NCBI RefSeq assembly: GCF_013393385.1
Contig: NZ_AP023239.1
Location: 558,001 to 622,000 of the forward strand
DNA: 64,000 bases
From: Paenibacillus sp. URB8-2
Lineage (GTDB): Bacteria > Bacillota > Bacilli > Paenibacillales > Paenibacillaceae
Reading direction: 5' to 3'
Positions within the stretch are counted from its first letter, which is position 1. Each line of letters starts with the position of its first letter. The notes beneath the pieces are model-generated. The model had not been told where the DNA came from and made no database searches. It worked only from the letters and a program-made list of their open reading frames with translations. The position numbers were made by a program, and so were the translations under genes. Of this stretch, positions 1-15,936 are shown in pieces.

Positions 1-1
1 G

Positions 2-1192
2 TTTGCTAAAGAACAGCCGGATTTGAACTGGGAGAATCCCAAGGTTCGTGAAACGATTTATGATATGATGAGGTTCTGGTTTGAGACGGGAATTGACGGT
101 TTCCGGATGGATGTCATCAGTTTGATCAGCAAACGTCAGGATTGGCCGGATGCGCCGGATGACGCGATCTATACCAAATCCTATTATATCGGCGCCTCCA
201 ATGGGCCGCGCGTTCACGAATTTCTCCATGAAATGAATCAAGAGGTATTGAGTAAATATAACATTTTGACCGTGGGCGAGACAGCCAATACCAATAGTGA
301 CCAAGCGATTTTATATACAGACCCGGATCGGGAAGAATTAAATATGGTCTTCCATTTCGATCACATGCACCTGGACTACGGACCCTACGGAAAGTTCTCG
401 GACATTCGTTTCAAGCTGAGCGATTTACGGGACGTCATGACGGAGTGGCAGGACAAACTGGAAGGCAGGGGGTGGAACTCCCTTTATTGGAGCAATCATG
501 ATCAGCCGCGAGCGGTTACCCGCTTTGGAAATGACACAACCTATCGGGTAGAGTCTGCAAAAATGCTGGGAACACTCCTTCATATGATGAAAGGCACGCC
601 TTATATTTATCAGGGAGAAGAGCTGGGAATGCGCAATGTCCGCTTTGATTCTTTTGATCAATATAAGGATATTGAAACCTATTGTATGAAGGAAGAATTT
701 GGGGAAAAAGGACTTCCGGAAGCGTACATCAAAGAGTCCATCTTCTTGAAGTCGCGTGATAATGCGCGCACACCGATGCCATGGAATGGATCGGATAATT
801 ATGGATTTACAAGCGGAACACCGTGGATTGATTTCAGCCCGGATAACGACTGGATCAACGTGGAGGATTGCATGGCCGATCCAAACTCGGTGTATTACCA
901 TTACAAGGAACTGATTCGTCTTCGGAAAGAGCTGCCGGTCGTGGTTGACGGAATCTATGAGCTGATTCATCCGTACGATTCCGCTGTCTACGGGTATACG
1001 CGTACCCTGGATCAGCAGAAGCTAGTCGTCATCTGCTCCTTCTCCGAGAGCAAAGTCAATTATAAATTGCCTGAGGAGCTGAAGCACTCATCCGGCAGAC
1101 TGTTACTATCCAATTATCCGGATACCCGGAAAGAGCTGGGTAATCTGGAGCTTCGCCCATATGAAGCGGTAATTTATTATATTCAAGCATAA
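2..1192 (+). CDS. Oligo-1,6-glucosidase-type GH13 alpha-glucosidase, 3' part
   Basis: The reading frame is already open at the left edge, so only the C-terminal ~396 residues are present. They contain three hallmarks of the GH13 catalytic barrel: GIDGFRMDV with the nucleophile Asp, TVGETAN with the acid/base Glu, and SNHDQPR with the transition-state Asp. The family cleaves terminal alpha-1,4 or alpha-1,6 glucosyl bonds of short oligosaccharides (isomaltose, sucrose, trehalose-6-phosphate types) in the cytoplasm. The C-terminal all-beta domain ends in a typical way. A strong terminator follows, then an RpiR-type regulator, which suggests a local sugar-utilisation unit. Exact substrate (malL, treC or similar) cannot be decided without the N-terminus. 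Confidence 0.9.
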   Translation, partial: FAKEQPDLNWENPKVRETIYDMMRFWFETGIDGFRMDVISLISKRQDWPDAPDDAIYTKSYYIGASNGPRVHEFLHEMNQEVLSKYNILTVGETANTNSDQAILYTDPDREELNMVFHFDHMHLDYGPYGKFSDIRFKLSDLRDVMTEWQDKLEGRGWNSLYWSNHDQPRAVTRFGNDTTYRVESAKMLGTLLHMMKGTPYIYQGEELGMRNVRFDSFDQYKDIETYCMKEEFGEKGLPEAYIKESIFLKSRDNARTPMPWNGSDNYGFTSGTPWIDFSPDNDWINVEDCMADPNSVYYHYKELIRLRKELPVVVDGIYELIHPYDSAVYGYTRTLDQQKLVVICSFSESKVNYKLPEELKHSSGRLLLSNYPDTRKELGNLELRPYEAVIYYIQA

Positions 1193-1211
1193 AGAACTGA
1201 TAATAGGACTA

Positions 1212-1246
1212 GACTAGTAGAGAATCTCCTCTTACTAGTCTTTTTT
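1212..1246 (+). terminator. Rho-independent terminator after GH13 gene
   Basis: GACTAGTA pairs with TACTAGTC, extended by GAG/CTC, followed by a run of six T. It separates the GH13 gene from the RpiR gene. Confidence 0.8.
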
Positions 1247-1308
1247 ACGGTATACTGTTTTTCATAGATGATGATACTTAGTAATACTACATAACGAGGA
1301 GCAGCTAT

Positions 1309-2064
1309 ATGGATTTTGACTTGCGAGTAAAGATAAATTATGACGATTTGACCGATTCTGAAAAAGAAATGGTAAGATTCATAACCAATCGGCCCCAAGA
1401 TGTCCTTAACATGAATATTGTCGAATTAGGCGAGGCCATGCTGAGTTCAAAAAGCTCGGTGCTTCGCTTGGCAAAAAAGCTGGGGTATCATGGATTTTCA
1501 GAATTAAAGTATGCCCTCAGGTCGGACATGACCCTAGCCTCACTTGAGCCCAGTGATTTGACTCTATTATTAAAACAGGATTTAGACCGGATTTTCCGAT
1601 ACATAGAGCAAACAAATTTCCAGCCTTTCCTGGTGAAGTTGAAAAATGCACGCATGGTCTTTTTATACGCCACCGGTTTCTCACAGAATAATTTCACTAA
1701 AGAATTTTCCAAGGATTTAATGATTGCGACACGACAAAATATATTGATTTCAGGCGAGACAAACTTGGCGATTAACAGCTCTATTATTACGGAAGACGAT
1801 TTGGTTATATTTACATCGTTCAGCGGCGAGACCGAAATGATAAAGGATGTCGTCCGGGAGTTAAAAATAAAAAACGTAACGATTGCAGCCATTACGAAAT
1901 TTGGCAGTAACTTTTTGAGCGGGCATGCCGACTATTCGTTCTTTTATGAGGCAACCCCATTGCCGAGTTATCAGAAGCAAGGGGTTCATTCGTTGATTGG
2001 GTTAGAAGTGATACTGGATGTCATTGCGCGAAAATATCGTGAGTTCATACTCTTTGATGAATAA
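1309..2064 (+). CDS. RpiR/MurR-family transcriptional regulator with SIS domain
   Basis: A 251-residue protein. The N-terminal helix-turn-helix covers roughly residues 1-75 (LTDSEKEMVRFI, then SKSSVLRLAKKLGYHGFSELK, the family recognition-helix signature). A sugar-isomerase (SIS) fold follows at about residues 105-235 (VIFTSFSGET is the phosphosugar-binding loop). Members sense phosphorylated sugars and repress or activate sugar genes. The ATG has a GAGGAG Shine-Dalgarno sequence 13 bases upstream. It lies just after the GH13 gene on the same strand and probably controls that gene or its operon; the target is inferred from position only. Confidence 0.88.
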   Translation: MDFDLRVKINYDDLTDSEKEMVRFITNRPQDVLNMNIVELGEAMLSSKSSVLRLAKKLGYHGFSELKYALRSDMTLASLEPSDLTLLLKQDLDRIFRYIEQTNFQPFLVKLKNARMVFLYATGFSQNNFTKEFSKDLMIATRQNILISGETNLAINSSIITEDDLVIFTSFSGETEMIKDVVRELKIKNVTIAAITKFGSNFLSGHADYSFFYEATPLPSYQKQGVHSLIGLEVILDVIARKYREFILFDE

Positions 2065-2098
2065 GCTTTTTGCAGTACATGCTTGGCACAAAAGGGGG

Positions 2099-2138
2099 CC
2101 CTTGATTCACCGGAATGAGTGACGAATCAAGGGTTTTT
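2099..2138 (+). terminator. Terminator after RpiR gene
   Basis: CCCTTGATTC and GAATCAAGGG form a perfect 10-bp stem followed by five T. It lies between convergent genes, the RpiR regulator and the radical SAM maturase; the U-tract favours the plus strand. Confidence 0.8.
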
Positions 2139-2143
2139 AGATT

Positions 2144-3574
2144 TTACGCCAAACGGCTGCCCACAGGCGCCCGGGGACAACGGGGATCTGGAGCATAGTG
2201 CTGATCCAATCCATAAGCTTTAAGAGCTTCCCTGACGCATCTTCCGAGACCTTCATGACACTGCTGGAAATCAGAGCAATCCTGGCAAGGTCCGTTGGAA
2301 ACGGCAGCCTGATCCGGGTAAGCAAGTTCCAGGGCTTTTGGCGAATTCCACACTTCCAGCAACGTCTGTTTCGTTAAATCGCCGATAATAAAATGCTCAT
2401 GATTGTACAGCTCTTCGCAGATGGTTACCTTACCGTCGGGCAGCACAACAACCCCGCGCCGGTTAGCCGTACAATACGCTCTTTCCCAAAAGTTTTTCTT
2501 CCTTAACGATTCCTCTCCGGCATAGGGATTATCACTGGCGCCGCTGAAATTTACTCTATCCGGAAATTCCTCTTTAATCTTGCTGAATTTTTTCTCGAAA
2601 ATCTTGATATCCTCCGGCGAACAGAACAGGCTGTCGTCATGGCGATATAAGGAACGTCCGTAGCAAGTAAAGTTGCTCCTCAGCACATAAGGCTTGCCCA
2701 TCAAATATCGCGCCAGAGACACGGCATCCTTGATGTTAACCGGGGTTAGCACCGTGTTGGTGCGGACCTTGATTCCCGCTTCACCCAAGTAATCGAGGGT
2801 TTGCAGTATTTTCTCCCCATAGCCGGTAAGACCCATGAGATGGTCAATGATTTCCGGGTTAAGCGCGTCGATACTAACCTGGATGGTGGATAGTCCGGTT
2901 GCCGCGAGCCGCTGGGCCATACTTCTGGATAAAGGATACTTCGTGGGGATATTGAGATACAGACCTGCAGACAGAGTGCTCTCAATGAAATCAAAGGCAT
3001 CCTCCCGGCAAAAAAAATCGCCCCCCGAGAACTCGACGGTTTCTATACCGCACTCACGGGCCTCTTGCAACAGGCGGCGGTACAGATTTAAATCCAATTC
3101 CTGTTTTCCTCTAAAACCCTCACGATCCGCATAGCAATACCTGCAACTGGTCACACAGCGCATCGTAGGGAGTACCAGCAGGGTGTAGGGCATTTTGCAC
3201 CGGGTATCATCCATGTCAATCTTCTCTTCCGGAACGATAAAAGTCTTGGGGTCGTAAATCCGTGCCTGATCCGGGTTGATACCGGAAGCTTCGATGATCA
3301 AGGATTCCATGGTCTGTTCTTCATTTACCCGCACAGCCAGCAGGGCATCCACTTGCCGAGACGCTGCTTCCCTATCCAGATCGAAGATATAGGCCACGGC
3401 TTCACGAACGGCAGTCAGGTCCCGTTTCCCGTCAAACAAGGAGAGGATGACAGCCTGTTGCGGGAATAGAAATTTAAACACATCCTGCCGGCTATCCCCC
3501 GGATTGGCGGTAAACAGGATTGATCTTCCCCCGTCAGGCCGCAGCTTCACCTCTGGGCTTAGCAGAAGTCCCAT
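2144..3574 (-). CDS. Radical SAM/SPASM peptide maturase with N-terminal RRE-like domain
   Basis: A 476-residue protein. Residues ~35-82 (QQAVILSLFDGKRDLTAV...) resemble the PqqD-like RiPP recognition element that binds leader peptides. The radical SAM cluster motif CxxxCxxC is at C140, C144 and C147 (CVTSCRYCYA), with the glycine-rich SGGDFF segment after it. The C-terminal ~110 residues carry many cysteines (YCTANRR, VTICEEL, CQDCSDFQQC, DPRCPRA), as expected of a SPASM domain with auxiliary Fe-S clusters. Such enzymes install thioether or other radical crosslinks in ribosomal peptides. It starts at an ATG preceded by GGGAGG and lies 16 bp downstream of two Cys-rich precursor genes on the same strand, which are the likely substrates. 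No transporter or protease follows. The crosslink chemistry cannot be read from the sequence. Confidence 0.85.
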   Translation of the reverse strand: MGLLLSPEVKLRPDGGRSILFTANPGDSRQDVFKFLFPQQAVILSLFDGKRDLTAVREAVAYIFDLDREAASRQVDALLAVRVNEEQTMESLIIEASGINPDQARIYDPKTFIVPEEKIDMDDTRCKMPYTLLVLPTMRCVTSCRYCYADREGFRGKQELDLNLYRRLLQEARECGIETVEFSGGDFFCREDAFDFIESTLSAGLYLNIPTKYPLSRSMAQRLAATGLSTIQVSIDALNPEIIDHLMGLTGYGEKILQTLDYLGEAGIKVRTNTVLTPVNIKDAVSLARYLMGKPYVLRSNFTCYGRSLYRHDDSLFCSPEDIKIFEKKFSKIKEEFPDRVNFSGASDNPYAGEESLRKKNFWERAYCTANRRGVVVLPDGKVTICEELYNHEHFIIGDLTKQTLLEVWNSPKALELAYPDQAAVSNGPCQDCSDFQQCHEGLGRCVREALKAYGLDQHYAPDPRCPRAPVGSRLA

Positions 3575-3590
3575 TATTATAACCTCCCTA

Positions 3591-3776
3591 TCATTTAACT
3601 GTTCCTCCGTTAGAGCATCCTGGAGAACATGATGTGCAGCGCATTGAACATCCCACTGTGCATCTTAATACATCCTCATCCTCCGTTACCGTATCCATAA
3701 TGAGTTCTCTTAAAAGCTCACGCTTCGAGAGACCTGTTCCGGAAAGAAGAGCCCGGATTTCCTTTAACCCACTCAT
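3591..3776 (-). CDS. Cys-rich RiPP precursor peptide (copy B)
   Basis: A 61-residue peptide. The charged amphipathic leader (residues 1-35; LKEIRALL, GLSKRELLRELI) is followed by a short core with Cys at 39, 43, 47, 50 and 54 and a G-G-T-V-K tail. An ATG behind an AGGTGAC Shine-Dalgarno sequence was chosen over an upstream GTG that overlaps that site. It lies between its paralogue and the radical SAM maturase. The leader and the C-x3-C-x2-C-x3-C core spacing are shared with the paralogue, while most core residues between the cysteines differ, the usual pattern of precursors processed by one enzyme. It could be a sactipeptide- or ranthipeptide-like product; the bioactivity is unknown. Confidence 0.8.
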   Translation of the reverse strand: MSGLKEIRALLSGTGLSKRELLRELIMDTVTEDEDVLRCTVGCSMRCTSCSPGCSNGGTVK

Positions 3777-3822
3777 TAATGTCACCTCATCCTCTATGAT
3801 TTAAAGTCCTTAATCCAGCGCA

Positions 3823-3996
3823 TCACTTTGCCGTAGGTCCGGTATTGCAGCCGATTTGACAATTGATACACCCGGATTCACACTGCCCGCATATTCCCCT
3901 ACTGTCCGTGACAGCATCAATCAGCTCTTTTAGAAGCTGGTGCTTGGAGAGACCGCATTCGCACAGAAGAGCCTTGATTTCCTGTAATTCACTCAT
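3823..3996 (-). CDS. Cys-rich RiPP precursor peptide (copy A)
   Basis: A 57-residue peptide and first gene of the three-gene minus-strand unit. The leader (LQEIKALL, GLSKHQLLKELI) is nearly the same as in copy B. The core has Cys at 36, 39, 43, 46 and 50 and ends G-P-T-A-K. Two extra cysteines, 12 and 14, sit in the leader. An ATG spaced correctly from a GAGGTGAT Shine-Dalgarno sequence was preferred to an in-frame start 11 codons upstream. The gap to copy B is 46 bp. Function is inferred from the paralogy and the neighbouring maturase. Confidence 0.8.
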   Translation of the reverse strand: MSELQEIKALLCECGLSKHQLLKELIDAVTDSRGICGQCESGCINCQIGCNTGPTAK

Positions 3997-4161
3997 CACT
4001 ATCACCTCGTCTTTAGCTATATTGTACATTTTTTCACATAAGCCGGATTTTCATACCCTTTTTCTGGAAAAAAAGAAAACTCAATTGTTCCGCTGCCCTC
4101 TGAAGTAGTCCTTGGCAAACCTCTGGCGGCAACAAAAAAAGGGCCAACCCATGAAGCGGGA
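3997..4161. other. Upstream region of RiPP unit, abutting IS1182 copy 1
   Basis: About 165 bp between precursor A and the IS end. It should hold the RiPP promoter. A TACAAT -10-like box reads leftwards at 4021-4026, but no good -35 is present at the right distance. No further gene is visible, so the IS insertion may have removed an upstream part of the cluster. Confidence 0.4.
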
Positions 4162-4283
4162 AGAGCACTGAAAAACGAATCCAAATTCAGGTAAAAGGGT
4201 TGGCGAATCTTCGTCAGCCTTTTTGATACTTTGGCACAGCAGAAAAGGTACTTCTCCGTTAAACTGGAGTTGAGGTGAATGAC

Positions 4284-5778
4284 ATGCTGGAACTTCACAA
4301 ACAACAAACGTTGTCCTTTCATAGTGAACTTTATCGGCTGATCCCCCCGGATCATCAGCTTATCCGTATCCACTAACTGATTGATTTTTCATTTATCCTG
4401 TCTTTTGTTCAAGAACAGTATGACTTGTACTAGGGCCGCCGGGCCAAAGATCCGGAAATGCTGTTTCGTTCACTGTTTATTCAAAATTGTACAACCTATT
4501 ATCAGACGAGCGTGTCATTGAGGAAGCCAAAGTCAATCTGGCATACAAGTGGTTTATTGGACTAAATCCCGAAGACCCATTGCCCGACCCGTCGCTGCTC
4601 TGTCTGTTTCGCATTCACAAGATTGGTGCTGGTGAAGTGGAGACGCTACTGGCCGAGGTTGTGAAACAGTGCGTGGCTCAAGGATTAGTGAAATCCCCGG
4701 CTCTGCTCATCGACGCCACGCATACTCACTCGAAGCATGTAGCCTCCAAACCGCTGCAAGTCTTGAAACAGGCCGCTCACCGCTTGCAGCGGGCGGTGAA
4801 AAAGCATACAGCAAACTGCTCAAAAACCTCCCGTCCATGCCGGTATTCGAGGGAGAATTCCGGGTGCAAGAGAAGCAGGCGCTCCGTTATCTGGATGAAC
4901 TGGGCCAAGCGGTGGAAAGGCTGGTGCCGGATGCAGAAGGGAAACTTGGGCAGCGCCTGGAAGAAAGCCGCAAGATTGTGGAGGATGAACGGCTACTGGC
5001 CTGGAAAGGGGTGCAGTCAGCGATTGACCCGGACGCACGATTGGGCTGGAAGAGCGCGAAGGAATCCTTTTTCGGCTACAAGGAAAGTGTGGCGATGACC
5101 GAAGACGACTTGGTTACGTCGATGAAAGTGGAGCCAGGGAACGCAAGTGATTGTCCCGCGTTTGAAGGGCTGCTAGAGCAAACCTTACAGGACGGAGTGA
5201 AGGTGGCTGAAGTGCTGGCGGATAAAGCCTACGGCAGCTTTGAAAACCTGGAAAAATTGGAGAAAGAACATATAACGTCGACCATTAAGCTGAACAGCAT
5301 GATGCTGTACGGCCAGCAGTCCAGTGAGCAGCGGGAGCGGTTTGTGTACCACAAAGACAGCGAAAGTGTGGAATGCCCGGCAGGACACCACAGCGTGCGC
5401 AAGACCCGCAAGGGAGAGAAGGACGGCAAAGAATGCCAACGGCTAACCTTTTATTTTGACGTGGAGAAGTGTAAAACGTGTCCGCTGCAGGCCGGCTGCT
5501 ACGAACCGGGCAGGGATTTCCGAACCTATTCGGTTCCAGTGGTGCCGGAATTTAAGCGAAAAGCGGTCGAGTACCACGAGAGTGAGAGGTTTCGGACACG
5601 CTACCGGAAGCGAAACAAGATTGAGCAAAAGAACAATGAACTGAAAACGCACCATGGCCTGGGAAAAATGCAGTACAGCGGAGGTCTGCTTTTCATGCGA
5701 ATCCAGGCCATCTTGACGACCATTGCTGTAAATGCGAAGCGGATGGTGAAGCTGGCGAGTGTGCAAACCACGGGATAA
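4284..5778 (+). pseudogene. IS1182-family transposase, disrupted
   Basis: Family identity is clear from the stretch YNLLSDERVIEEAK, NLAYKWFIGLNPEDPLPDPS, LIDATHTHSK and the C-terminal zinc-binding-like and DDE segments (CKTCPLQAGCY, KRNKIEQKNNELK). From the ATG the frame has stops at 4374 (TAA) and 4431 (TAG), a frameshift near 4487 and a second (-1) shift near 4802 within GTGAAAAAGC. The rest reads open to 5778. It should be inactive unless frameshifting is programmed; the TAG makes this unlikely. The TAG and both shifts recur in copy 2. Confidence 0.85.
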
Positions 5779-5825
5779 GGGGAGGATTCTCCCTAATCCG
5801 GGGTGAAAAAAGAAGCGAAAAGCCC

Positions 5826-5871
5826 AAAAAAGTCGCGGTTGGTTGCTGTTCGCAACCAACCGCGACTTTTT
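5826..5871 (+). terminator. Hairpin/terminator at right end of IS1182 copy 1
   Basis: A perfect 20-bp inverted repeat (AAAAAGTCGCGG... / ...CCGCGACTTTTT) with a five-base loop TGTTC. The A/T flanks would make it work as a terminator on both strands. Confidence 0.7.
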
Positions 5872-5917
5872 CAGTGCTCTCCCTTTTTGGGGACTTTGCC
5901 TGGGGAGTAACTGACCC

Positions 5918-6061
5918 GTCTGTTTTCCACACCCAAACTTCTTGCACTTTTCGGCTCTTAACGTCTTTCAGCAAGTTTTGAAGCGCTGGACGCTTCTTGA
6001 TGGATTTTCCAGAAACTCCGGCGTCTGCGTATTCGTTAAAAACAAGCTTATGTTCCATCAT
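5918..6061 (-). pseudogene. Serine recombinase (resolvase/invertase) fragment
   Basis: About 48 codons read FNEYADAGVSGKS, KKRPALQNLL and EVWVWKTD, the conserved centre of the catalytic domain of large serine recombinases (usually Y-x-D-x-G-x-S-G ... RPALQ-x-LL ... VWK-x-D-R-L-S-R). The N-terminal Ser region and everything after WKTD are missing. It is a remnant of another mobile element next to the IS1182 end. Confidence 0.7.
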
Positions 6062-6354
6062 GCAACGAGTTCGAAGTATGGTTATGTAAAATAATATAAT
6101 AATTTTGAAAAATATTGAATATAAGGTAGATTAATAGGAACTTATAGGGTACAATACCTCTAAATTATTCTAATTTCGATCATAAATGCTTGAAAATGGT
6201 AGTTACATATGAAAACCACGGAATCACGATAGATTTAAATCGTGTTCCAAGTTCTTCTGATGTTATCTATAAATAAACTGGGAAAGGTGTGATTTCAATT
6301 TCTAATTAGATCAGTATAAACAAATGTATTTAAATCTATAAAGGTGGTGCGAGC
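6062..6354. other. AT-rich intergenic region upstream of metalloprotease
   Basis: No gene found. The base composition is clearly more AT-rich than the neighbouring housekeeping DNA. The last 20 bases hold the AAAGGTGG ribosome site of the interrupted metalloprotease gene; the promoter should lie here but no single box stands out. Confidence 0.4.
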
Positions 6355-6421
6355 TTGAAAAAATCATTAATCTCTACGAAAAAGTTGTTTATTATTGGTA
6401 TGATATTATCTAGTGTATATA

Positions 6422-7601
6422 CCCGGCGAAAAATAAATTGAGTTGAGCGATCATGCACAACCCACAAAGAAATAAATTCCAGTATAATAGTCTTCAATAC
6501 GATGATTATTGGAGACGATACAAATGAGTGTACGAGTTGGTGTGGCAGAAGAACACAAAGCAGCAGCCATTCTGGAAATCAAAGCCGCGATGAAAATAAA
6601 CAAAGATTTACGGATGCACGAAAGGTATCAGACGATCCTCCTGCTGTTACTTGGCGAATCCTACGAACGAATTTCCGAAGTGACAGGACGAACGGTTGCG
6701 ACCTTATATAACTACAGCAAAGCTTACCGAGAGCAAGGGATGCAGGGGCTACAAATCGGACGTCCTCCAGGACGACATCGCTTGTTAACTGCTGAACAAG
6801 AGCAACAAGTGTATGAAGTGATAACGAATCAAACGCCCGAGGATCAAGGATTTCCTTCCCAGATGAACTGGACTTCTCCACTCGTTCGGAAATGGATCGA
6901 ACAAAAGTGGAATATTCGGTATTCGGATCGAGGGACACGAGACCTTTTGTACCGTTTGAAGCTTAGCTTTACGAAGCCGACCTACACACTGGCTAAAGCA
7001 GACCCACAGAAACAAGAAGAATTCAAAGAACACTTTCAGGAGTTAAAAAAAACTCCTCGCTGGGCGCATCGACCGGATTCTGTTTGAAGATGAGTCCATG
7101 ATCCGGGATTACCAAGCGCTTTCTCGTACCTGGTTTCCCAAGGGGCAGCAAAAAATCATTCCCACCTACGGCAAGCATTGGGGAGCGAAGCTGATCGGGA
7201 CGCTGGATTATGAATCCGGCGAAGTGTTTTGCGTACAAGAAGAACAGTATACCGCCAAAGAATTCTTGTCCTTTCTGGAACGCGTCTTGGAAAAGTATGA
7301 AGGCGACCGAATCGTGATGATTTTGGACAATGCACGAATTCATCACGCAGACCTCATCCAGCCTTTTTTAAAAGAACATCAAGCCAAACTCACCTTGGTT
7401 TATTTGCCTCCGTATAGTCCGAATTTGAACATGATTGAAGAATTGTGGGGCTGGTTAAAATCATCCGTAATTCATAATGTCTTCTTCGACTCGGTACAAA
7501 AAATTCGCAAAGTTGTTCAAGGATTTATCCGTTTGATTAATGAAACGCCCGCTGCCACAGTTGAACGCTTATGTCTTCAATTCTAAATATTAAATGCCGA
7601 A
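6422..7601 (+). mobile_element. IS630-type insertion sequence
   Basis: About 1180 bp with short imperfect terminal inverted repeats (CCCGGC left; TTCGGC as complement of the right end) flanked by TATA on both sides, in line with the TA target preference of IS630/Tc1 elements. It holds a transposase in two overlapping frames. It interrupts the metalloprotease gene just after its signal sequence. Confidence 0.75.
6509..7586 (+). CDS. IS630-family transposase, frameshift in A8 run
   Basis: The first frame (6509-7087; a likely start is the ATG at 6524) encodes the helix-turn-helix part (YERISEVTGRTVATLYNYSKAYREQG, winged-helix RYSDRGTRDLLYRLKLSFTKP). The second frame, open from near 7050 to 7586, carries the DDE catalytic core: FEDESMIRD, MILDNARIHH and LPPYSPNLNMIEELWGWLK. 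The frames meet at a run of eight A near 7050 (GAGTTA then A8). A +1 shift, or loss of one A in the transcript, would fuse them into a normal-length transposase. Slippage at A runs is known for some IS630 members, so the gene may still be functional; a plain mutation is the alternative. Confidence 0.75.
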
Positions 7602-8146
7602 TATATAGTTGCTTTTAGTACAGCTTCTTTTGCAACTATCTGGTATGGAGGAAGAAGTTCAGCATTTTTTAATGCATACTATGATTCTTCTGTTGCTTCT
7701 TATGGCTATACGGGCGCATATGATACAGCCCGATCTCGTTGGAATGGTGCTTCATCATCGGTTGATATTGGTAAAACAACCTCGACCAGTGGAAATCCAG
7801 ACAAATATTTTGTTGGCACTACCAATAATTTCGGCGTATTGGGACAACAGACTGCTTATAATTCCTCTGGTCAGATAGTCGGAGTATCTGATAGTTGGGC
7901 ATATAGTACGGTAGCAATTTATCATAACCAGATGGAATTTCAAGGTATGACTTCATCGGAAATATCATCCAATGCCACTCATGAAGTCGGTCATACACTA
8001 TCCCAGGCGCATCCTGTAACTTCCGAAGCTTCTGTCATGAAACAAGGTATACAATCTATTGGTGTTCAATCTTATGATGTAATGTCCTTAATCTCTAAGT
8101 GGGGAGATTAAATATAACAAAAGGTTCGGGAAGGGGTACATTATCT

Positions 8147-8755
8147 ATGGCTATCAGCAAGCCTAAGTTAGGCTTAATCACAATAGCAGTTATTATAATT
8201 GCTTCGGTAAGTTTCTTTACATTGACCTACGGTTCTCCAAAGACATCTGCAAGTATTCCTAAAATTTCAATAAATGCTTCTTATGTGAAGTTTGAAACGG
8301 TCAGTGAATTGGATTCCAGCGCGGAACTAATTATAGTGGGAACGCCTACGCAAGATTTTGATGAACGTAAACATGTTGTTACAACTTTTGATGATGGCAC
8401 TTTACAAGACTTTTATACAATAACTGATGTAAAAGTCGATCAAGTAATTAAAGCGCCAAAAGATTCTTCATTGGCTAATGGTGACTCCTTAAGCATCATT
8501 GAACCGATCTCCTATATTGAAGATGGAGCTGGCAAGAAAAAGATAAGCTTCGAGGATTACACTGAATTGAAGCAAAGTGAAAAAAATATCATTTTCCTAA
8601 AAAAGAATACCCAAGGTCAATATAGTATTATTAATATGGATCTCGGGAAGTTTAGCCTTAATTCTTCAGCTAAATCATTCAGCGCTTCGTCAGAAGAACA
8701 AATTGTTAAAGACGGTTTCCGGAAACAAGTGTTAGAAAAATACAAAGTGAATTAA
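8147..8755 (+). CDS. Membrane-anchored hypothetical protein
   Basis: About 202 residues. The ATG at 8147 follows GGGAAGGGG. An N-terminal hydrophobic segment (LGLITIAVIIIASVSFFTLTY) gives a membrane anchor or signal; the rest is a polar extracytoplasmic domain containing a VGTPTQDF/ITDVKVDQVIK region. I do not recognise the family. It starts 35 bp after the metalloprotease stop and probably formed an operon with it, so it could be an accessory or inhibitor protein of that protease; this is inferred from position. A strong bidirectional terminator follows. Confidence 0.65.
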   Translation: MAISKPKLGLITIAVIIIASVSFFTLTYGSPKTSASIPKISINASYVKFETVSELDSSAELIIVGTPTQDFDERKHVVTTFDDGTLQDFYTITDVKVDQVIKAPKDSSLANGDSLSIIEPISYIEDGAGKKKISFEDYTELKQSEKNIIFLKKNTQGQYSIINMDLGKFSLNSSAKSFSASSEEQIVKDGFRKQVLEKYKVN

Positions 8756-8762
8756 ACATAAT

Positions 8763-8800
8763 AAAACCGTGTTCTTGATTTTTCAGAAGAACACGGTTTT
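8763..8800. terminator. Bidirectional terminator
   Basis: AAAACCGTGTTCTT and AAGAACACGGTTTT form a perfect 14-bp stem between the convergent genes at 8147 and 8804; both sides carry A/T tracts. Confidence 0.85.
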
Positions 8801-8803
8801 ATT

Positions 8804-9271
8804 TTATTTTGAAGTTTCTGCATCTACTAACATTTTGTTGATAGAATCTGTAAGCTCAACTGGTATACTGTAACCCGTTTCAGTATCTCCTTTATTCATA
8901 TACATAGCATTAGATGTCTTAGCAGTAGTATCTATCCATAAATAATACGAACTTTCAACACCATCCTTTTGAAATGTAACTTCATAAGTAGGAGATCCTA
9001 CATTAAGTGTACCTGGTATCTTTTTTGACTCCTTAATTGCCTGAGTAAAGGTTTCAATGTTGGAAGAATCCTCAATAGTAGCCGCTATGTCTCTTTCTGT
9101 TGAAGGCTCGTATTCCTGTAGCGTCTTGCCTTCCTGTTTTTTAACATATGAGAATATGACTTTTTCCTGTAAGGATTCAGTTTGAAAAGAAGTACTTGCT
9201 TGGTCAGTATTTGAACTACAGGCAGTTAATAATAAAGCAGCACTTAACAGTGCAATAACTTTTTTCCACAT
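8804..9271 (-). CDS. Putative lipoprotein of unknown function
   Basis: A 155-residue protein with a typical lipoprotein signal: MWKKVIALLSAALLLTAC, lipobox LTAC with Cys18. The mature part has no motif I recognise; an SSYYLWID segment and a C-terminal helix are visible. It stands alone between two terminator/AT-rich regions. About 160 bp upstream (9272-9432) hold no further gene. Confidence 0.65.
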   Translation of the reverse strand: MWKKVIALLSAALLLTACSSNTDQASTSFQTESLQEKVIFSYVKKQEGKTLQEYEPSTERDIAATIEDSSNIETFTQAIKESKKIPGTLNVGSPTYEVTFQKDGVESSYYLWIDTTAKTSNAMYMNKGDTETGYSIPVELTDSINKMLVDAETSK

Positions 9272-9432
9272 TATTTGAAATCACTCCCTTTTTAAACGAT
9301 AATCTTCAGTATAATTACTAAACGAAATTATTATGGAAAAGTTTCGATGATTTAGAAAAAATAAAGCATATATACAAAATGAATTAAAAAATTACACATA
9401 ATACACAGTCGATTGATGACTTCCATTGGGTT

Positions 9433-9825
9433 CTAGTTCACGCGATTTATAAATCGGGGCAACCTCCCCGCCCTCCTCTGCCTTCCGATTTCCGCAATCG
9501 CGTCGACAACCTTTCCGATCACCAAACTAAGCAGCCCGATGCCGAAAATGTATAGAAAAATCGTAAATATTTTGCCGATGACGGTCTTTGCAAAAAAGTC
9601 CCCGTATCCGACCGTTGCCATAGTCGTTATCACCCAGTTGAACGAATTGAACCAGCTGCCGAACGTATCGGGTTCCAGCAGGAAGGCGACCGTTGCGCAG
9701 AACGCGACAAACAAGAGAATACTGAGAAAGTCCGTTCTTTTCCTGACGTTGGTTATCATAGTAGACAGCCTTAACAAAAAGTGAATGGCAGTCACCCTCC
9801 CCGGACGTTTCGAAAAGGTCCGCAA
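9433..9825 (-). CDS. Two-TM potassium channel (pore domain only)
   Basis: About 130 residues with two membrane helices (LSILLFVAFCATVAFLL and IFTIFLYIFGIGLLSLVIG) around a pore loop carrying the K+ selectivity filter TVGYGDF. It lacks the cytoplasmic RCK domain of full-size KtrA/YugO-type channels, ending in a short basic tail. The start is uncertain: the longest frame begins with TTG at 9825, a GTG at about 9795 abuts GGGGAGG, and an ATG lies at about 9759. A DUF350 fragment lies just upstream on the same strand. DUF350 and ion-channel genes are frequent neighbours in Bacillales, so this is probably the tail of a broken cluster. Confidence 0.75.
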   Translation of the reverse strand: MRTFSKRPGRVTAIHFLLRLSTMITNVRKRTDFLSILLFVAFCATVAFLLEPDTFGSWFNSFNWVITTMATVGYGDFFAKTVIGKIFTIFLYIFGIGLLSLVIGKVVDAIAEIGRQRRAGRLPRFINRVN

Positions 9826-9877
9826 AGCCGCCCGCCGATTGACGGCTTTAAGGACAGCCCTGCGGGCCTTCTATTGG

Positions 9878-10179
9878 CTAAATAATCAGACTGCTGACCG
9901 TAAACGCGGTTCCGATAAAAACAAAGCACAGCAGCGTTTCCACCGCGACATTGCCCTGCTTCAGTTGGTTGGAGATTTTAAAGCTGATCGTGACCAGCTC
10001 GAAAATCCAGTACGTCGCCACCAGACAGACATAGCCGACAGCGAACCAGAGCACCATAAATCAGATCGAGGAATTCGTATAGGCCGCCACACCGAGAATA
10101 ATCGCGGTCGCCAGAAATTTCCCGTCAAGCGCCAGACCTACGGCAACATTGCCGTTCTTCAGCTCCTCCCCCAAAAGGG
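9878..10179 (-). pseudogene. DUF350 (YjfL-like) membrane protein, truncated and frameshifted
   Basis: Minus-strand translation gives ELKNGNVAVGLALDGKF, then ATAIILGVAAYTNSSI followed by a TGA, and after a 1-nt shift MVLWFAVGYVCLVATYW, KISNQLKQGNVAVETLL and a last membrane helix ending at TAG (9878). The duplicated LKxGNVAV motif is typical of DUF350. The 5' end is cut off by the left end of IS1182 copy 2. Non-functional. Confidence 0.75.
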
Positions 10180-10301
10180 AGAGCACTGAAAAACGAATCC
10201 AAATTTAGGTAAAAGGGTTGGCGAATCTTCGTCAGCCTTTTTGATGCTTTGGCACAGCGGAAAAGGTACTTCTCCGTTAAACTGGAGATGAGGTGAATGA
10301 C

Positions 10302-11268
10302 ATGCTGGAACTTCACAAACAACAAACGTTGTCCTTTCATAGTGAACTTTATCGGCTGATCCCCCCGGATCATCAGCTTATCCGTATCCACCAACTGATT
10401 GATTTTTCATTTATCCTGCCTTTTGTTCAAGAACAGTATGACTTGTACTAGGGCCGCCGGGCCAAAGATCCGGAAATGCTGTTTCGTTCACTATTTTTCC
10501 AAAATTGTACAACCTGTCAGACGAGCGAGTCATTGAGGAAGCCAAAGTCAATCTGGCATACAAGTGGTTTATTGGACTAAATCCCGAAGACCCATTGCCC
10601 GACCCGTCTCTGCTCTGTCTGTTTCGCATTCACAAGATTGGTGCTGGTGAAGTGGAGACGCTACTGGCCGAGGTTGTGAAACAGTGTGTGGCTCAAGGAT
10701 TAGTGAAATCCTCGGCTCTGCTCATCGACGCCACGCATACCCACTCGAAGCATGTAGCCTCCAAACCGCTGCAAGTCTTGAAACAGGCCGCTCACCGCTT
10801 GCAGCGGGCGGTGAAAAAGCATACAGCAAACTGCTCAAAAACCTCCCGTCCATGCCGGTATTCGAGGGAGAATTCCGGGTGCAAGAGAAGCAGGCGCTCC
10901 GTTATCTGGATGAACTGGGCCAAGCGGTGGAAAGGCTGGTGCCGGATGCAGAAGGGAAACTTGGGCAGCGCCTGGAAGAAAGCCGCAAGATTGTGGAGGA
11001 TGAACGGCTACTGGCCTGGAAAGGGGTGCAGTCAGCGATTGACCCGGACGCACGATTGGGCTGGAAGAGCGCGAAGGAATCCTTTTTCGGCTACAAGGAA
11101 AGTGTGGTGATGACCGAAGACGACTTGGTTACGTCGATGAAAGTGGAGCCAGGGAACGCAAGTGATTGTCCCGCGTTTGAAGGGCTGCGAATCCAGGCCA
11201 TCTTGACGACCATTGCTGTAAATGCGAAGCGGATGGTGAAGCTGGCGAGTGTGCAAACCACGGGATGA
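10302..11268 (+). pseudogene. IS1182-family transposase, disrupted and internally deleted
   Basis: It reads like copy 1 from MLELHKQQ, with the shared TAG stop at 10449, a frameshift near 10505 and another near 10818. The joined end CPAFEGL-RIQAILTTIAVNAK shows an in-frame loss of 175 codons that removes part of the catalytic core and the Cys-rich segment. It cannot encode an active transposase. Confidence 0.85.
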
Positions 11269-11314
11269 GGGGGGGTTCTCCCTCATCCAGAGTGAAAAAA
11301 GAAGCGAAAAGCCC

Positions 11315-11362
11315 AAAAAAGTCGCGGTTGGTTGCTGTTCGCAACCAAAACCGCGACTTTTT
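11315..11362 (+). terminator. Hairpin/terminator at right end of IS1182 copy 2
   Basis: Same GTCGCGGTTGGTTGC hairpin as in copy 1 but with two extra A in the right arm. It separates the IS from the convergent alcohol dehydrogenase gene. Confidence 0.6.
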
Positions 11363-11405
11363 CAGTGCTCTACCATTAAGCGGGCTAACCCTCCTTATTT
11401 ACGAA

Positions 11406-12446
11406 TTACAATGTGGTTACGTCAATAACGAACCGGTAACGCACATCGCTGCGGAGGACACGCTGATACGCTTCGTCTACCTGGTCCGCGCGGATTACCT
11501 CGATTTTGGGGGCAATGCCGTGCTCCGCGGAGAAATCGAGCATTTCTTGCGTTTCCCGGATTCCGCCAACGAGTGAACCTGCGATGCTGCGGCGGCCCAT
11601 GATCAGGGAAAATACCTGGTACTTATCCGGTTCGGCCGGCGCACCGACATTGACAAGCGTTCCATCGATGCGAAGCAGCGATAAATAGGCATCAACGTCA
11701 AGATTGGCTGACACGGTATTTAGGATGAGGTCGAATTGACTGGCCAATGTTTTGAATGTAGCGGGATCGCTGGTTGCAAAATAATGATCGGCGCCAAAGC
11801 TCAGGGCTTCCTCTTTTTTACCGATAGATCGGCTCAAGACGGTGACTTCAGCACCCATCGCATGCGCATATTGAATGGCGAGGTGACCAAGACCCCCCAC
11901 GCCCACAATGGCAACCTTCTTACCCGGGCCGGCGTTCCAGTGCTTCAAAGGAGAGTATGTCGTAATGCCCGCGCACAGCAGAGGGCTTGCCACATTCAGC
12001 TCCAGACTGTCCGGGATACGGACAACGAATCTTTCGGTTACCACTATTTGTTGGCTGTATCCGCCGTATGTCGGATTGCCGTCATAGTCCAGGGAGTTAT
12101 AGGTGGCGACAAAGCCTTTCGTACAATATTGCTCCTCACCCTTAAGGCAGTATTCGCATTCCCCGCAGGAGTCAACAAAGCAGCCAACGCCAACGCGATC
12201 GCCAACCGCAAATTTGGTAACTTCTGTTCCTACGGCCGCCACAACACCGGCGATTTCGTGACCGGGAACCATGGGGAAAATTCCGCCGCCCCATTCATCG
12301 AATGCGCTGTGGATGTCGGAGTGGCAAATCCCGCTAAACTGAATATCGATCAGGACGTCATGAGGCCGTAAGGCTCTCCGCTCAATCGTGGTTTTTTCGA
12401 ATGGCGCTTTGGCGCTGGAAACACTTAAAACTCGAGTTTGGCACAT
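11406..12446 (-). CDS. Zinc-dependent NAD(P) alcohol dehydrogenase (YahK/CAD-like)
   Basis: A 346-residue medium-chain dehydrogenase. The catalytic-zinc motif is GICHSDIH and [12 protein letters not shown]; the structural zinc cysteines are [15 protein letters not shown]; the Rossmann motif is [12 protein letters not shown]. It reduces aldehydes or oxidises alcohols in the cytoplasm, most like the NADPH-dependent cinnamyl-alcohol-type reductases. On the minus strand a promoter TTGCAT-16-TATAAT (12541-12514) precedes it, and the TetR palindrome lies 20 bp upstream of the -35. It is thus probably part of the TetR regulon, a detoxification role shared with the neighbouring reductases. Confidence 0.9.
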
Positions 12447-12513
12447 GTTTGTTCTCTACTCCTTTTCTTGTGAAGATATAAAACATTGATGCTTTAATGC
12501 ACATCTGTCTAGT

Positions 12514-12541
12514 ATTATAAACTGATTCATACGGCATGCAA
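12514..12541 (-). promoter_or_regulatory. SigA-type promoter of alcohol dehydrogenase
   Basis: On the minus strand TTGCAT (12541-12536), a 16-bp spacer and TATAAT (12519-12514), 68 bp from the ATG. Confidence 0.5.
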
Positions 12542-12560
12542 TTGTTAAATCAGCCGTATT

Positions 12561-12576
12561 TGTTCATTAATGAACA
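12561..12576. promoter_or_regulatory. TetR operator 1
   Basis: Perfect palindrome TGTTCATTAATGAACA, directly after the tetR stop codon and upstream of the alcohol dehydrogenase promoter. It matches a second site on the other side of tetR. Confidence 0.7.
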
Positions 12577-12578
12577 GA

Positions 12579-13124
12579 TCATACATTTCTTTCTAATAAA
12601 GCCCCCAGTTGTCTGGCCAAAACATCCTGCGGGAACGGCTTTTCATTCATGAACCACCATTCCACCACCCCCACGTAAGCAGACGCAACAAACCTGACGA
12701 TAAGCTCTTCATTTATTCCGTGATTTTTTCCTCCGGTCACGTCCACTTCTTTCCGGAATTCTTCGATTAGAAAGTTAAGGAACCGATTGCGGAAATAAGG
12801 AGCCCCTTTACTCGCCAGCATCAGCGAAAAGAAGGAATAATGGCTTTCGAAGTATTCGCAGAAGATTAGCGTCGCCTCGATAAAATCCAATTGACATGCC
12901 GATTCGCACAGCTTCCGCAGCTCGTCGATATGTTCTTCAATCAGCTTATCCAGCAGATCGAATTTATCCAGGTAATGAAGATAGATGGTTCCGCGGCTCA
13001 CGTTTGCTCTGTCGGAGAGATCCTGTATCGTAATGTCATCAAAATTCTTTTCCGACATCAATTCAATTACAGCTTTTTTTAACGCTTCCTGCGTTTTGAG
13101 TATTCTTCGATCCACTTTGGACAT
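12579..13124 (-). CDS. TetR/AcrR-family transcriptional repressor
   Basis: A 181-residue protein with the N-terminal TetR helix-turn-helix (residues ~8-55: ALKKAVIELMSEKNFDDITIQDLSDRANVSRGTIYLHYLDKFDLLD) and a C-terminal ligand domain with a conserved AYVGVVEWWF helix. It is divergent from the carboxymuconolactone-decarboxylase-like gene. The same TGTTCA-N4-TGAACA palindrome occurs before its start and after its stop, which implies autoregulation and control of both flanking genes. The inducer is unknown; an aldehyde or quinone would suit the target genes. Confidence 0.88.
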   Translation of the reverse strand: MSKVDRRILKTQEALKKAVIELMSEKNFDDITIQDLSDRANVSRGTIYLHYLDKFDLLDKLIEEHIDELRKLCESACQLDFIEATLIFCEYFESHYSFFSLMLASKGAPYFRNRFLNFLIEEFRKEVDVTGGKNHGINEELIVRFVASAYVGVVEWWFMNEKPFPQDVLARQLGALLERNV

Positions 13125-13173
13125 TGAGGGTCACCATGCTTTCTTAAAAAATAATTTACACCTATAGAGTATC

Positions 13174-13189
13174 TGTTCAGTAATGAACA
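13174..13189. promoter_or_regulatory. TetR operator 2
   Basis: TGTTCAGTAATGAACA, same half-sites as operator 1 with a different central base. It lies in the divergent tetR / 13307 promoter region, 20 bp upstream of the plus-strand -35 box. Confidence 0.7.
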
Positions 13190-13208
13190 AATTGCGCTCA
13201 ATTAACAA

Positions 13209-13236
13209 TTGAAGTTGTTCTATATCCTCTTATAAT
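13209..13236 (+). promoter_or_regulatory. SigA-type promoter for the 13307 operon
   Basis: TTGAAG (13209-13214), a 16-bp spacer and a perfect TATAAT (13231-13236), 70 bp before the start codon. Confidence 0.6.
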
Positions 13237-13306
13237 TATAGACGGATGTATATTAATGTATCAATAATCAATATTTCCTGACAACGAATGAAAGAGGGAA
13301 TCTTAC

Positions 13307-13636
13307 ATGTCCAATGAAAAAGAGCTTACAGGTGCACAAAAAGTGATTGGAGATTTTGCCCCGAAACTCGTGGAGCTTACCGACAATATTCTGTTTGGCG
13401 ATGTATGGGAACGCAAGGAGCTTGCTCCGCGCGACCGCAGCTTGATTACCGTAGCCAGCCTGATTGCTGGCGGGAACACGGAACAACTGGGATTTCATTT
13501 GAACAAAGCGAAAGAGAACGGACTGTCGGAAGAAGAGCTTAAAGAAGTTATCATTCATCTTGCTTTTTACGCGGGTTGGCCGAAAGCGATGTCTGCCATT
13601 ATGGTAGCCAAAGAATTGTTCTCAAAAGTGAAGTAG
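13307..13636 (+). CDS. Carboxymuconolactone decarboxylase (CMD/AhpD-like) family protein
   Basis: A 109-residue single-domain protein with the family signature (FGDVWERKELAPRDRSLITVASLIA ... EQLGFHLNKAKENGLSEEELKEVIIHLAFYAGWPKA). It lacks the CxxC of AhpD-type peroxidases. Such small proteins accompany aldo/keto reductases and act in quinone or aromatic detoxification, but the exact reaction is unknown. An aldo/keto reductase gene follows after 12 bp, so they form an operon; the start has GAAAGAGGG upstream. Confidence 0.85.
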   Translation: MSNEKELTGAQKVIGDFAPKLVELTDNILFGDVWERKELAPRDRSLITVASLIAGGNTEQLGFHLNKAKENGLSEEELKEVIIHLAFYAGWPKAMSAIMVAKELFSKVK

Positions 13637-13648
13637 GGAGGTTCATTC

Positions 13649-14632
13649 ATGAAATACCGCACAGTAGGAAAAACAGGGATTCAGGTCTCGAATTTATGCT
13701 TCGGTACGATGTCTTTTGGCGGCAACGCGGATGAAAAAACGTCCAAAGCCATGTTCAAGCGCTGCCGTGAAGCGGGGATCAACTTTTTTGATACAGCAAA
13801 TGTTTATAGCGGGGGGCGTTCTGAAGAAATCCTGGGAAAGTGTATTGCGGATTGCCGGGACGAAATTGTACTGAGCACCAAAGTGTTCTATCCCATGGGA
13901 AAAGATATTAATGCAGGGGGGCTCTCCCGCCGCCACATCATGCTCGAAGTTGAAAATAGCCTGCGGCGTTTGAAAACGGATCGCATCGATTTTTACTTTG
14001 TGCATATGTTCGATGAGAAAACTCCGATGGAAGAAACGCTCCGTGCGCTTGACGACCTTCAGGCTCAGGGCAAAATTCTCTATCCGGCAGTAAGCAACTG
14101 GGCGGCTTGGCAGATTGCCAAGGCACTGGGGATTTCCGCAAAAGAGCAGCTTGCCCGTTTTGAATTAATCCAGCCGATGTTTAACCTGGTTAAGCGCCAG
14201 GCCGAGGTTGAAATTTTGCCGCTCGCTGCTTCCGAACAAATTGGAGTCATTTCCTATAGCCCGCTCGGAGCCGGGCTTCTTACGGGCAAATATGGAGTGA
14301 ACAAACGGCCGGAGCAGGGGCGGCTCGTTGAAGAGAAGAGATATACGGATCGATACGCGGATGAAATGAATTTTGCCGTAGCCGACCGGTTTAATGCCTA
14401 TGCCACAGATCGTGGCGTGAAGCCCTCGACGCTGGCCGTCGCCTGGGCAATGTCGCATCCTGTGATAACGGCGCCGATTATCGGGGCAAGAAACCTGGAG
14501 CAGCTTGAGGATTCGCTCGCCGCGGCCGCTGTGGACATGACTCCGGAGTGGCGGGACGAAATCTCGTCGCTTTCGGTTACTCCTGCACCCGCGACGGACC
14601 GCGGCGAAACGCTGCTGCCGATATGGACATAA
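13649..14632 (+). CDS. Aldo/keto reductase
   Basis: A 327-residue (alpha/beta)8 NADPH-dependent reductase. The catalytic tetrad is visible: Asp and Tyr in FFDTANVYSGG, Lys in VLSTKVFY and His in FYFVHMFDE; the cofactor loop is PIIGARNLEQLEDSL. Ribosome site GGGAGG. It belongs to the TetR-flanked detoxification cluster and runs into the MFS gene. The substrate is probably an aldehyde or ketone. Confidence 0.9.
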   Translation: MKYRTVGKTGIQVSNLCFGTMSFGGNADEKTSKAMFKRCREAGINFFDTANVYSGGRSEEILGKCIADCRDEIVLSTKVFYPMGKDINAGGLSRRHIMLEVENSLRRLKTDRIDFYFVHMFDEKTPMEETLRALDDLQAQGKILYPAVSNWAAWQIAKALGISAKEQLARFELIQPMFNLVKRQAEVEILPLAASEQIGVISYSPLGAGLLTGKYGVNKRPEQGRLVEEKRYTDRYADEMNFAVADRFNAYATDRGVKPSTLAVAWAMSHPVITAPIIGARNLEQLEDSLAAAAVDMTPEWRDEISSLSVTPAPATDRGETLLPIWT

Positions 14633-14655
14633 CTCCAACAGCGGGCGAACACAAT

Positions 14656-15828: not shown

Positions 15829-15936
15829 CGGGGGATTCTCCCGTGCTGTAAAAAATGCTGGAAGAAGCAGCCGAACGCAGAGTGCTGCCGTACTGAATCA
15901 TCAATAATAAGATAGCTTTTCACCTGCCGGTATATG

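Follow-up and report, generated by a model that had tools for sequence, protein, structure and literature searches.

The described systems closest to the locus reported here are the sactipeptides (subtilosin A, SKF, thurincin H, thuricin CD and ruminococcin C) and the ranthipeptides (SCIFF/thermocellin, freyrasin of Paenibacillus polymyxa and NxxcA), both belonging to the ribosomally synthesised and post-translationally modified peptides (RiPPs). In the former, a radical S-adenosylmethionine (SAM) maturase with a RiPP recognition element (RRE) stands beside a Cys-containing precursor; in the latter, Cys-containing precursors go together with SPASM maturases. The locus lies in a window of 64,000 nucleotides (the whole stretch analysed) from Paenibacillus sp. 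URB8-2 (contig NZ_AP023239.1, positions 558,001 to 622,000), whose genome is a single contig of 5.58 Mb. It comprises two small genes for Cys-rich peptides, A and B, and a gene for a radical SAM/SPASM maturase. The gene set is conserved, RRE and SPASM folds are predicted for the maturase, and the core of the peptides is conserved along with it. There is strong support for the RiPP identity of the locus, and from sequence comparisons it is best read as a putative new radical-SAM RiPP subfamily. As a whole, it is likely to be a minimal cassette in which an RRE guides thioether-type modification and the protease and any exporter come from outside. The elements of the cassette are the following.

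3823..3996, minus strand: precursor peptide A, 57 aa, with the leader at about residues 1-35 and the core at C36-K57 (nt 3826-3891); open reading frame (ORF) found in ten Paenibacillus loci
3591..3776, minus strand: precursor peptide B, 61 aa, paralogue of A, with the core at C39-K61 (nt 3594-3662); ORF found in ten Paenibacillus loci
2144..3574, minus strand: radical SAM/SPASM RiPP maturase, 476 aa; Pfam Radical_SAM and SPASM above cut-off
3290..3574, minus strand: predicted N-terminal RRE of the maturase, about residues 1-95; domain model with a predicted local distance difference test score (pLDDT) of 88.2, leading structure matches RRE
3134..3157, minus strand: CxxxCxxC [4Fe-4S]/SAM motif, C140/C144/C147 counting Met1; invariant in 33 aligned proteins
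2177..2473, minus strand: SPASM domain; PF13186 and TIGR04085 above cut-off, seven invariant Cys

The cassette reads A, B, maturase on the minus strand; the original prediction, made from the letters of the stretch, had given no strand. A and B are separated by 46 bp and B and the maturase by 16 bp, the latter as predicted, and a purine-rich ribosome-binding site can be read ahead of each of the three starts. Precursor A is MSELQEIKALLCECGLSKHQLLKELIDAVTDSRGICGQCESGCINCQIGCNTGPTAK and precursor B is MSGLKEIRALLSGTGLSKRELLRELIMDTVTEDEDVLRCTVGCSMRCTSCSPGCSNGGTVK. The proposal of two adjacent small genes with a common leader and a common Cys core is borne out in all its parts: the leaders share L-x-E-I-[KR]-A-L-L...GLSK...LL-[KR]-E-L-I, and the cores, with five Cys each, share C-x3-C-x2-C-x3-C-x2-G-x-T-x-K. 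Neither peptide has GG at the leader-core junction, and B has it only near the C-terminus. When the genome was searched with a profile of A and B, only these two copies were significant (E 7e-34 and 3e-29; next 0.25). The best explanation is that A and B arose through duplication and that both are substrates of the maturase.

The maturase is encoded once in the genome, the three other matches being at most 29 percent identical. Its CxxxCxxC motif was correctly placed by the original prediction, and together with the seven SPASM Cys (C368, C386, C430, C433, C439, C446 and C466, counting Met1) it makes up ten Cys that are invariant across the 33 aligned relatives (alignment A1), which places the enzyme among the radical SAM/SPASM proteins. 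The AlphaFold2 model of the whole protein (pLDDT 93.3) finds its best solved folds in SkfB, the SKF enzyme, followed by SuiB and PqqE. The PqqD-like N-terminus that had been proposed falls below the Pfam cut-off by sequence (E 0.066), and only six of the 33 members of A1 have a PqqD match at E ≤ 0.5; the same domain folded alone, however, matches RRE structures. Structure prediction thus supports an N-terminal RRE and, with it, the proposed RRE/radical SAM/SPASM architecture. Both marks of a RiPP locus were found, namely a maturase with an RRE domain and adjoining precursors with a conserved leader and a variable core. PADLOC also reported viperin matches, which are taken to reflect the common radical SAM barrel.

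The order A, B, maturase is identical in all ten distinct Paenibacillus loci that were read: the window, a P. peoriae plasmid (L005), P. terrae (L006), P. rhizophilus (L007), Paenibacillus sp. BJ-4 (L008), P. zanthoxyli (L009) and the genomes G049, G054, G019 and G018 of the same genus (L086-L089). Three further loci (L090, L091 and L096) were left out of this count because their peptides match those of L007, L009 and L008, respectively. Precursor B of L089 is intact and starts MNTL. Pairwise NG86 estimates of dN/dS against the window are about 0.11-0.20 for the maturase, 0.27-0.75 for A and 0.22-0.53 for B, and are below 1 in every comparison computed; A and B of L089 and the maturase of L005 are without values, and B was taken from two residues late in L005, L006, L008 and L096.

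These values bear on the possibility that the cassette is a decaying remnant with no current function. Insertion sequence (IS) elements adjoin the cassette in the window, and the maturase of the P. peoriae plasmid (L005:14998-16427) is split into two frames that are annotated as two genes, both adjoining precursor genes being intact. Decay is nevertheless highly improbable, given the low dN/dS of the maturase, its intactness in the window and eight other distinct Paenibacillus loci, and the conservation of the region upstream of A.

Relatives inside and outside the genus were obtained by scanning genome contigs with A1, the best 80 of 116 being used. The maturase is 83-93 percent identical within Paenibacillus and 60 percent in Methanothrix. 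In Auribacterota, Nitrospirota, Zixibacteria, Alphaproteobacteria and a Delta 3 symbiont the identity is 35-38 percent, and relatives from Aminicenantes, Bacteroidota and others are at about 27-37 percent. Counting the starting genome each time, the maturase occurs in 3 of 294 genomes of the phylum of the Methanothrix locus and in 2 of 199 of that of the Aminicenantes locus. The original prediction had staked itself on homologous precursors beside related maturases, and Cys-rich peptides do precede the maturases in Paenibacillus, Methanothrix, Auribacterota, Nitrospirota, Zixibacteria, Alphaproteobacteria, the Delta 3 symbiont and Aminicenantes. More generally, a small Cys-rich ORF (35-110 aa, three Cys within 13 residues, ending at most 450 bp from the maturase) lies just upstream in 51 of the 75 loci with at least 450 bp of upstream sequence (five of the 80 had too little), compared with 62 of 1120 windows taken as controls from these loci. 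The recurrence of the gene order in ten loci, the dN/dS values below 1 and this excess over controls confirm that the cassette is more than a chance arrangement.

The core itself was compared in 13 selected precursors, consisting of A and B of the window, A and B of P. zanthoxyli (each counted separately) and nine from other phyla outside Bacteroidota, each of these nine loci having a single Cys-rich precursor. The motif C-x(2,4)-C-x3-C-x2-C-x(2,3)-G-[CST] is found in 12 of the 13, and when each core is shuffled, between 0.4 and 4.5 percent of the trials restore the Cys part. The B peptides of the Paenibacillus loci L006-L008, which are outside this set, fit a similar pattern, as do 16 of the 51 upstream ORFs with respect to four Cys. 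The invariant core columns of the precursor alignment (A3) are Cys. Some likeness of leaders persists at a distance, for example between LQEIKALLCECGLS in A and LNEIKALLQENGYT in Auribacterota. Searches for precursors by sequence alone gave 9 matches with a Paenibacillus profile and 19 with a mixed profile, and a database search with the mixed set adds members of the alphaproteobacterial and Nitrospirota precursor types. By sequence, then, the peptide family appears to span bacteria and archaea, with one Cys pattern mostly kept.

Some relatives have precursors of other types. A compact subfamily of 56-67 aa (L014, L016 and P0137-P0145) has the core C-x3-C-x3-C-A-x-C-C-[SA]-S-G-[TS]-[AG]-N. Many Bacteroidota relatives have precursors with GG leaders, some with a C39-like sequence nearby (by eye), in line with the association of GG leaders with PCAT proteins reported for Bacteroidales (PMC10352776). 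Upstream of distant maturase relatives at L031, L057, L061 and L081 are GG-leader peptides with a nearly identical C-terminus, CNKTQSCQTHT or CNKTQSCQTRT, which is a separate and highly conserved core. At L033, where little upstream sequence is present, and at L055, three tandem Cys-rich GG-leader peptides follow the maturase relative downstream.

The proposed search against RiPP family models places none of the three genes in a named RiPP family among those listed. Neither A nor B scores above the cut-off of any Pfam or NCBIfam family, and none of eight relatives' precursors outside Bacteroidota (B of P. zanthoxyli included) reaches an NCBIfam cut-off. For the maturase, only the SPASM domain model is above cut-off among the 25 highest-ranking of 58 NCBIfam families. 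Its best profile matches are GeoRSP (93.8 bits against an equivalog cut-off of 400), PqqE (86.6 against 381), ScmE (77.1 against 400) and mycofactocin (64.8 against 265), and what we take to be the partner genes of these maturases were not seen beside the cassette. The sactisynthase model StsB scores 55 bits against a cut-off of 625.

Compared with the sactipeptides, the cassette recalls thuricin CD in having two peptides but differs in its Cys spacing, in the lack of conserved transporter, protease or immunity genes adjoining it, in having precursors without NCBIfam matches above cut-off, and in a maturase outside the named sactisynthase models among those 25 families. With the ranthipeptides it shares a recurring C-x3 spacing, and a ranthipeptide-like C-x3-[DE] occurs at the first core Cys of A in nine of the ten Paenibacillus loci. 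However, the window has it once in A (C36-E40) and not in B, so that the repeated C-x3-D/E of the PapA type is absent. Freyrasin, with its six Cys-Asp links (PMC8326336, PMC9413430), is unlike the cores of this cassette. The SCIFF precursor model has no match at E 1 to A or B, which have five-Cys cores as against six Cys in about 45 residues. This agrees with the original prediction, in which the spacing matched neither subtilosin, thuricin nor SCIFF patterns.

Two further groups come near. SacP23 of P. polymyxa is likewise a Paenibacillus radical-SAM RiPP with a Cys-rich core, but it belongs to the CLI_3235 family of bacteriocins and to an eight-gene cluster with transporter and protease (PMC10731318), and a P. 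polymyxa precursor of this family printed in PMC7343975 is unlike A and B. The CXXX-repeat and AC3_0185 radical SAM targets (TIGR04117, TIGR04118) also have CxxxC-rich cores. B of P. zanthoxyli matches both weakly (TIGR04117, E 6e-4, 19.8 bits against 50; TIGR04118, E 3e-4, 20.6 against 35), and the Auribacterota precursor matches TIGR04117 (E 5e-4), but in the window B scores 12.4 bits against 35 for TIGR04118 and A has no match, which leaves them outside the CXXX-repeat group. According to a published survey of radical SAM networks, many RiPP loci of two or three genes are uncharacterised (PMC9062424), and a group that includes this cassette may sit unnamed in such networks. A literature search, with bioRxiv and closed journals outside its scope, found no paper describing these peptides.

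As to chemistry, the peptides are probably cross-linked by thioethers. This is the most likely product in view of the invariant Cys of the core and the predicted fold of the enzyme, which is that of RiPP maturases with SPASM clusters. The RRE would bind the common leader of A or B and present the core to the radical SAM centre, where an acceptor residue would lose a hydrogen to the 5'-deoxyadenosyl radical. Auxiliary cluster I, presumably with only three protein Cys ligands, would hold a Cys thiolate, which would then close a thioether of the sactionine or ranthionine type, with the four-Cys motif C-x(2,4)-C-x3-C-x2-C giving the donors. Leader removal, and any export, would proceed through proteins encoded elsewhere. 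If this is right, the cassette adds a radical-SAM RiPP subfamily with a precise core signature, in a compact unit of three genes suited to direct expression.

The maturase could instead make a different change, be it epimerisation, a C-C or C-O cross-link, or a modification that leaves the thiols free. The nearest curated profiles are those of GeoRSP, PqqE, ScmE and mycofactocin maturases and not of known sactisynthases, and SuiB and PqqE, which are among the best folds, make C-C bonds. Since the invariant columns of A3 are Cys and the full set of seven SPASM Cys is present, we regard this as rather unlikely.

Several observations do weigh against a thioether cassette with a common core. Acceptor residues are not obvious in the cores, and no member of this peptide family with known chemistry was found. 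By the criterion given above, 24 of the 75 loci have no Cys-rich upstream ORF. In Methanothrix, whose locus (60 percent) is the closest of those read outside Paenibacillus, the precursor has C-x3-C-x3-C-x3-C and lies outside the motif. Eight more loci with labels other than Bacteroidota, outside the set of 13, do not supply the motif: in four (L029, L036, L053 and L081) the Cys-rich upstream ORF lacks it, three (L019, L028 and L046) have no ORF by the criterion, and at L023 the upstream sequence is too short. Finally, unlike described sactipeptide clusters, the cassette has no protease, peptide exporter or immunity gene conserved nearby.

The last point is related to the surroundings of the cassette, for which two features are to be added.

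3997..4072, minus strand: conserved region upstream of A, likely promoter and ribosome-binding site; from a ten-locus alignment, intact below the IS border
4105..11376, no strand: IS block of 7.3 kb with IS1182- and IS630-type elements, upstream of A and not reaching the cassette, absent from G049 and G018; from blastn against L110 and L113 and Pfam transposases in two ORFs

The original prediction had offered, as one explanation for the absence of an exporter and a protease, that they were lost at the IS1182 border. This is not supported. Positions 1-4104 and 11377-15849 of the window are collinear with G049 at about 94 percent, and only about 445 bp lie between them there, so that the block is an insertion. 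G049 and G018 keep the same flanks without it and also show no protease or peptide exporter, the G049 result coming from a scan of ten flank ORFs. The conserved region of about 75 bp upstream of A is untouched by the block; no consensus sigma-70 promoter was found in it, and consensus promoters showed no excess over shuffles (1 found against a mean of 2.8).

The window and G049 have in common flanking genes for an alpha-glucosidase, for a regulator of the RpiR type and for an alcohol dehydrogenase; farther from the cassette, G049 has sorbose-type phosphotransferase system genes and genes for a TetR regulator and an aldo/keto reductase. The flanks are different in P. terrae, BJ-4, P. rhizophilus, G054 and the plasmid. 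A scan of 30 flank ORFs, chosen from G049, G054, G019, P. rhizophilus (L114), P. zanthoxyli, G018, P. terrae, BJ-4 and the plasmid, found no protease family at E 1e-4; an exporter may be encoded among the other or hypothetical flank ORFs. Three major facilitator superfamily (MFS) transporters were seen: one immediately adjoins the maturase in G054 (L111:7811-8944), one is a fragment that lies about 1 kb away from A in P. zanthoxyli, and one in G018 is at a distance of about 4 kb. As their places differ, no transporter appears to be kept at the cassette among these ORFs. The C39 peptidase domain (PF03412) has no match in the whole genome, while 8 of 14 control genomes match, and with no GG at the junctions of A and B the peptides fall outside the C39-exported GG-leader class.

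These results make a classical bacteriocin less certain. Secreted antimicrobials or signals, such as a two-peptide bacteriocin like thuricin CD with its exporter elsewhere, would be compatible with thioether chemistry, and such a function is possible but on the doubtful side. Both paralogues are kept in all ten Paenibacillus loci and two-peptide sactibiotics exist (PMC12093266); on the other hand, no immunity gene or conserved transporter is beside the cassette, PF03412 is lacking, and the nine loci from other phyla have one precursor each.

The distribution of the cassette was also surveyed. At E 1e-60 the maturase occurs in 7 of 100 genomes of the genus (G000, G018, G019, G045, G049, G054 and G099) and in 5 of 344 genomes of a family sample, four of which are also among the seven. 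Of 72,556 plasmid records, 257 have some match, six of them covering at least 80 percent of the query and one exceeding 60 percent identity; no relative was found when viral contigs were scanned with A1. The 125 rows of a quick maximum-likelihood tree were 106 of 120 listed proteins, selected by length, together with the window and 18 loci; support came from the Shimodaira-Hasegawa-like approximate likelihood ratio test only. In this tree the window, three named Paenibacillus proteins and one further close relative form one clade (100), which lies within a set of 19 rows (96) and a clade of 50 (100). The enclosing clade holds Theionarchaea, Methanothrix, Syntrophobacteraceae and many metagenome proteins. 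Because the enzymes of Paenibacillus are nested within sequences from metagenomes, archaea and syntrophs, the simplest reading is that Paenibacillus probably acquired the cassette once by horizontal transfer. The donor is uncertain, since most rows are without names and the archaeal rows come from metagenome bins; mtrH adjoins the maturase on the Methanothrix contig, which supports, without proving, the archaeal label. If right, this would be a likely transfer from anaerobic prokaryotes, possibly archaea, and to our knowledge few archaeal RiPP systems have been characterised.

Within the genus, nifH is found in all seven maturase genomes as against 48 of the 93 others (Fisher p 0.016), and in eight of the nine carrier genomes examined. 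Six carriers have five or six nifH matches (some below the family cut-off) and G099 has two. The association is only a lead, given the relatedness of the carriers and the lack of a nifH match in one of them, a P. terrae genome. It could be taken to suggest an intracellular peptide whose CxxxCxxC binds a [4Fe-4S] cluster or a metal, serving as a metal buffer or a small electron carrier that the maturase rigidifies or trims. CxxxCxxC is present in 12 of the 13 selected precursors, no protease or peptide exporter is kept beside the Paenibacillus cassettes in the flanks examined, and the named nearest relatives come from groups that we take to be anaerobic. This function is nonetheless improbable: the nifH link is phylogenetically confounded, the Methanothrix precursor lacks CxxxCxxC, the GG leaders of many Bacteroidota relatives point to export, and the MFS transporter adjoins the G054 maturase. 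A broader version, to which we give equally little credence, would see in the cross-phylum core an iron-sulfur-type ligand set, shaped by the radical SAM enzyme into an intracellular electron carrier or cluster chaperone and not an antibiotic, the compact cassette moving between archaea and bacteria and being acquired by mostly nifH-bearing Paenibacillus lineages.

Some minor features of the surroundings may be added. Within the IS block are an IS630-type element and two copies of the IS1182 type, one of which seems to have an internal deletion (10505-11268). At 6356-8111 of the window, pieces of a secreted protein seem to lie on either side of the IS630-type transposase, as if a gene had been interrupted; the piece tested has no Pfam match, and the pieces include HEVGHTLSQAH, which we take to be a zinc-protease-like motif. 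About 2 kb beyond the G019 cassette, a gene (L112:12163-13227) has ricin-B-lectin and Toxin_10 Pfam domains, the latter of the insecticidal crystal toxin type.
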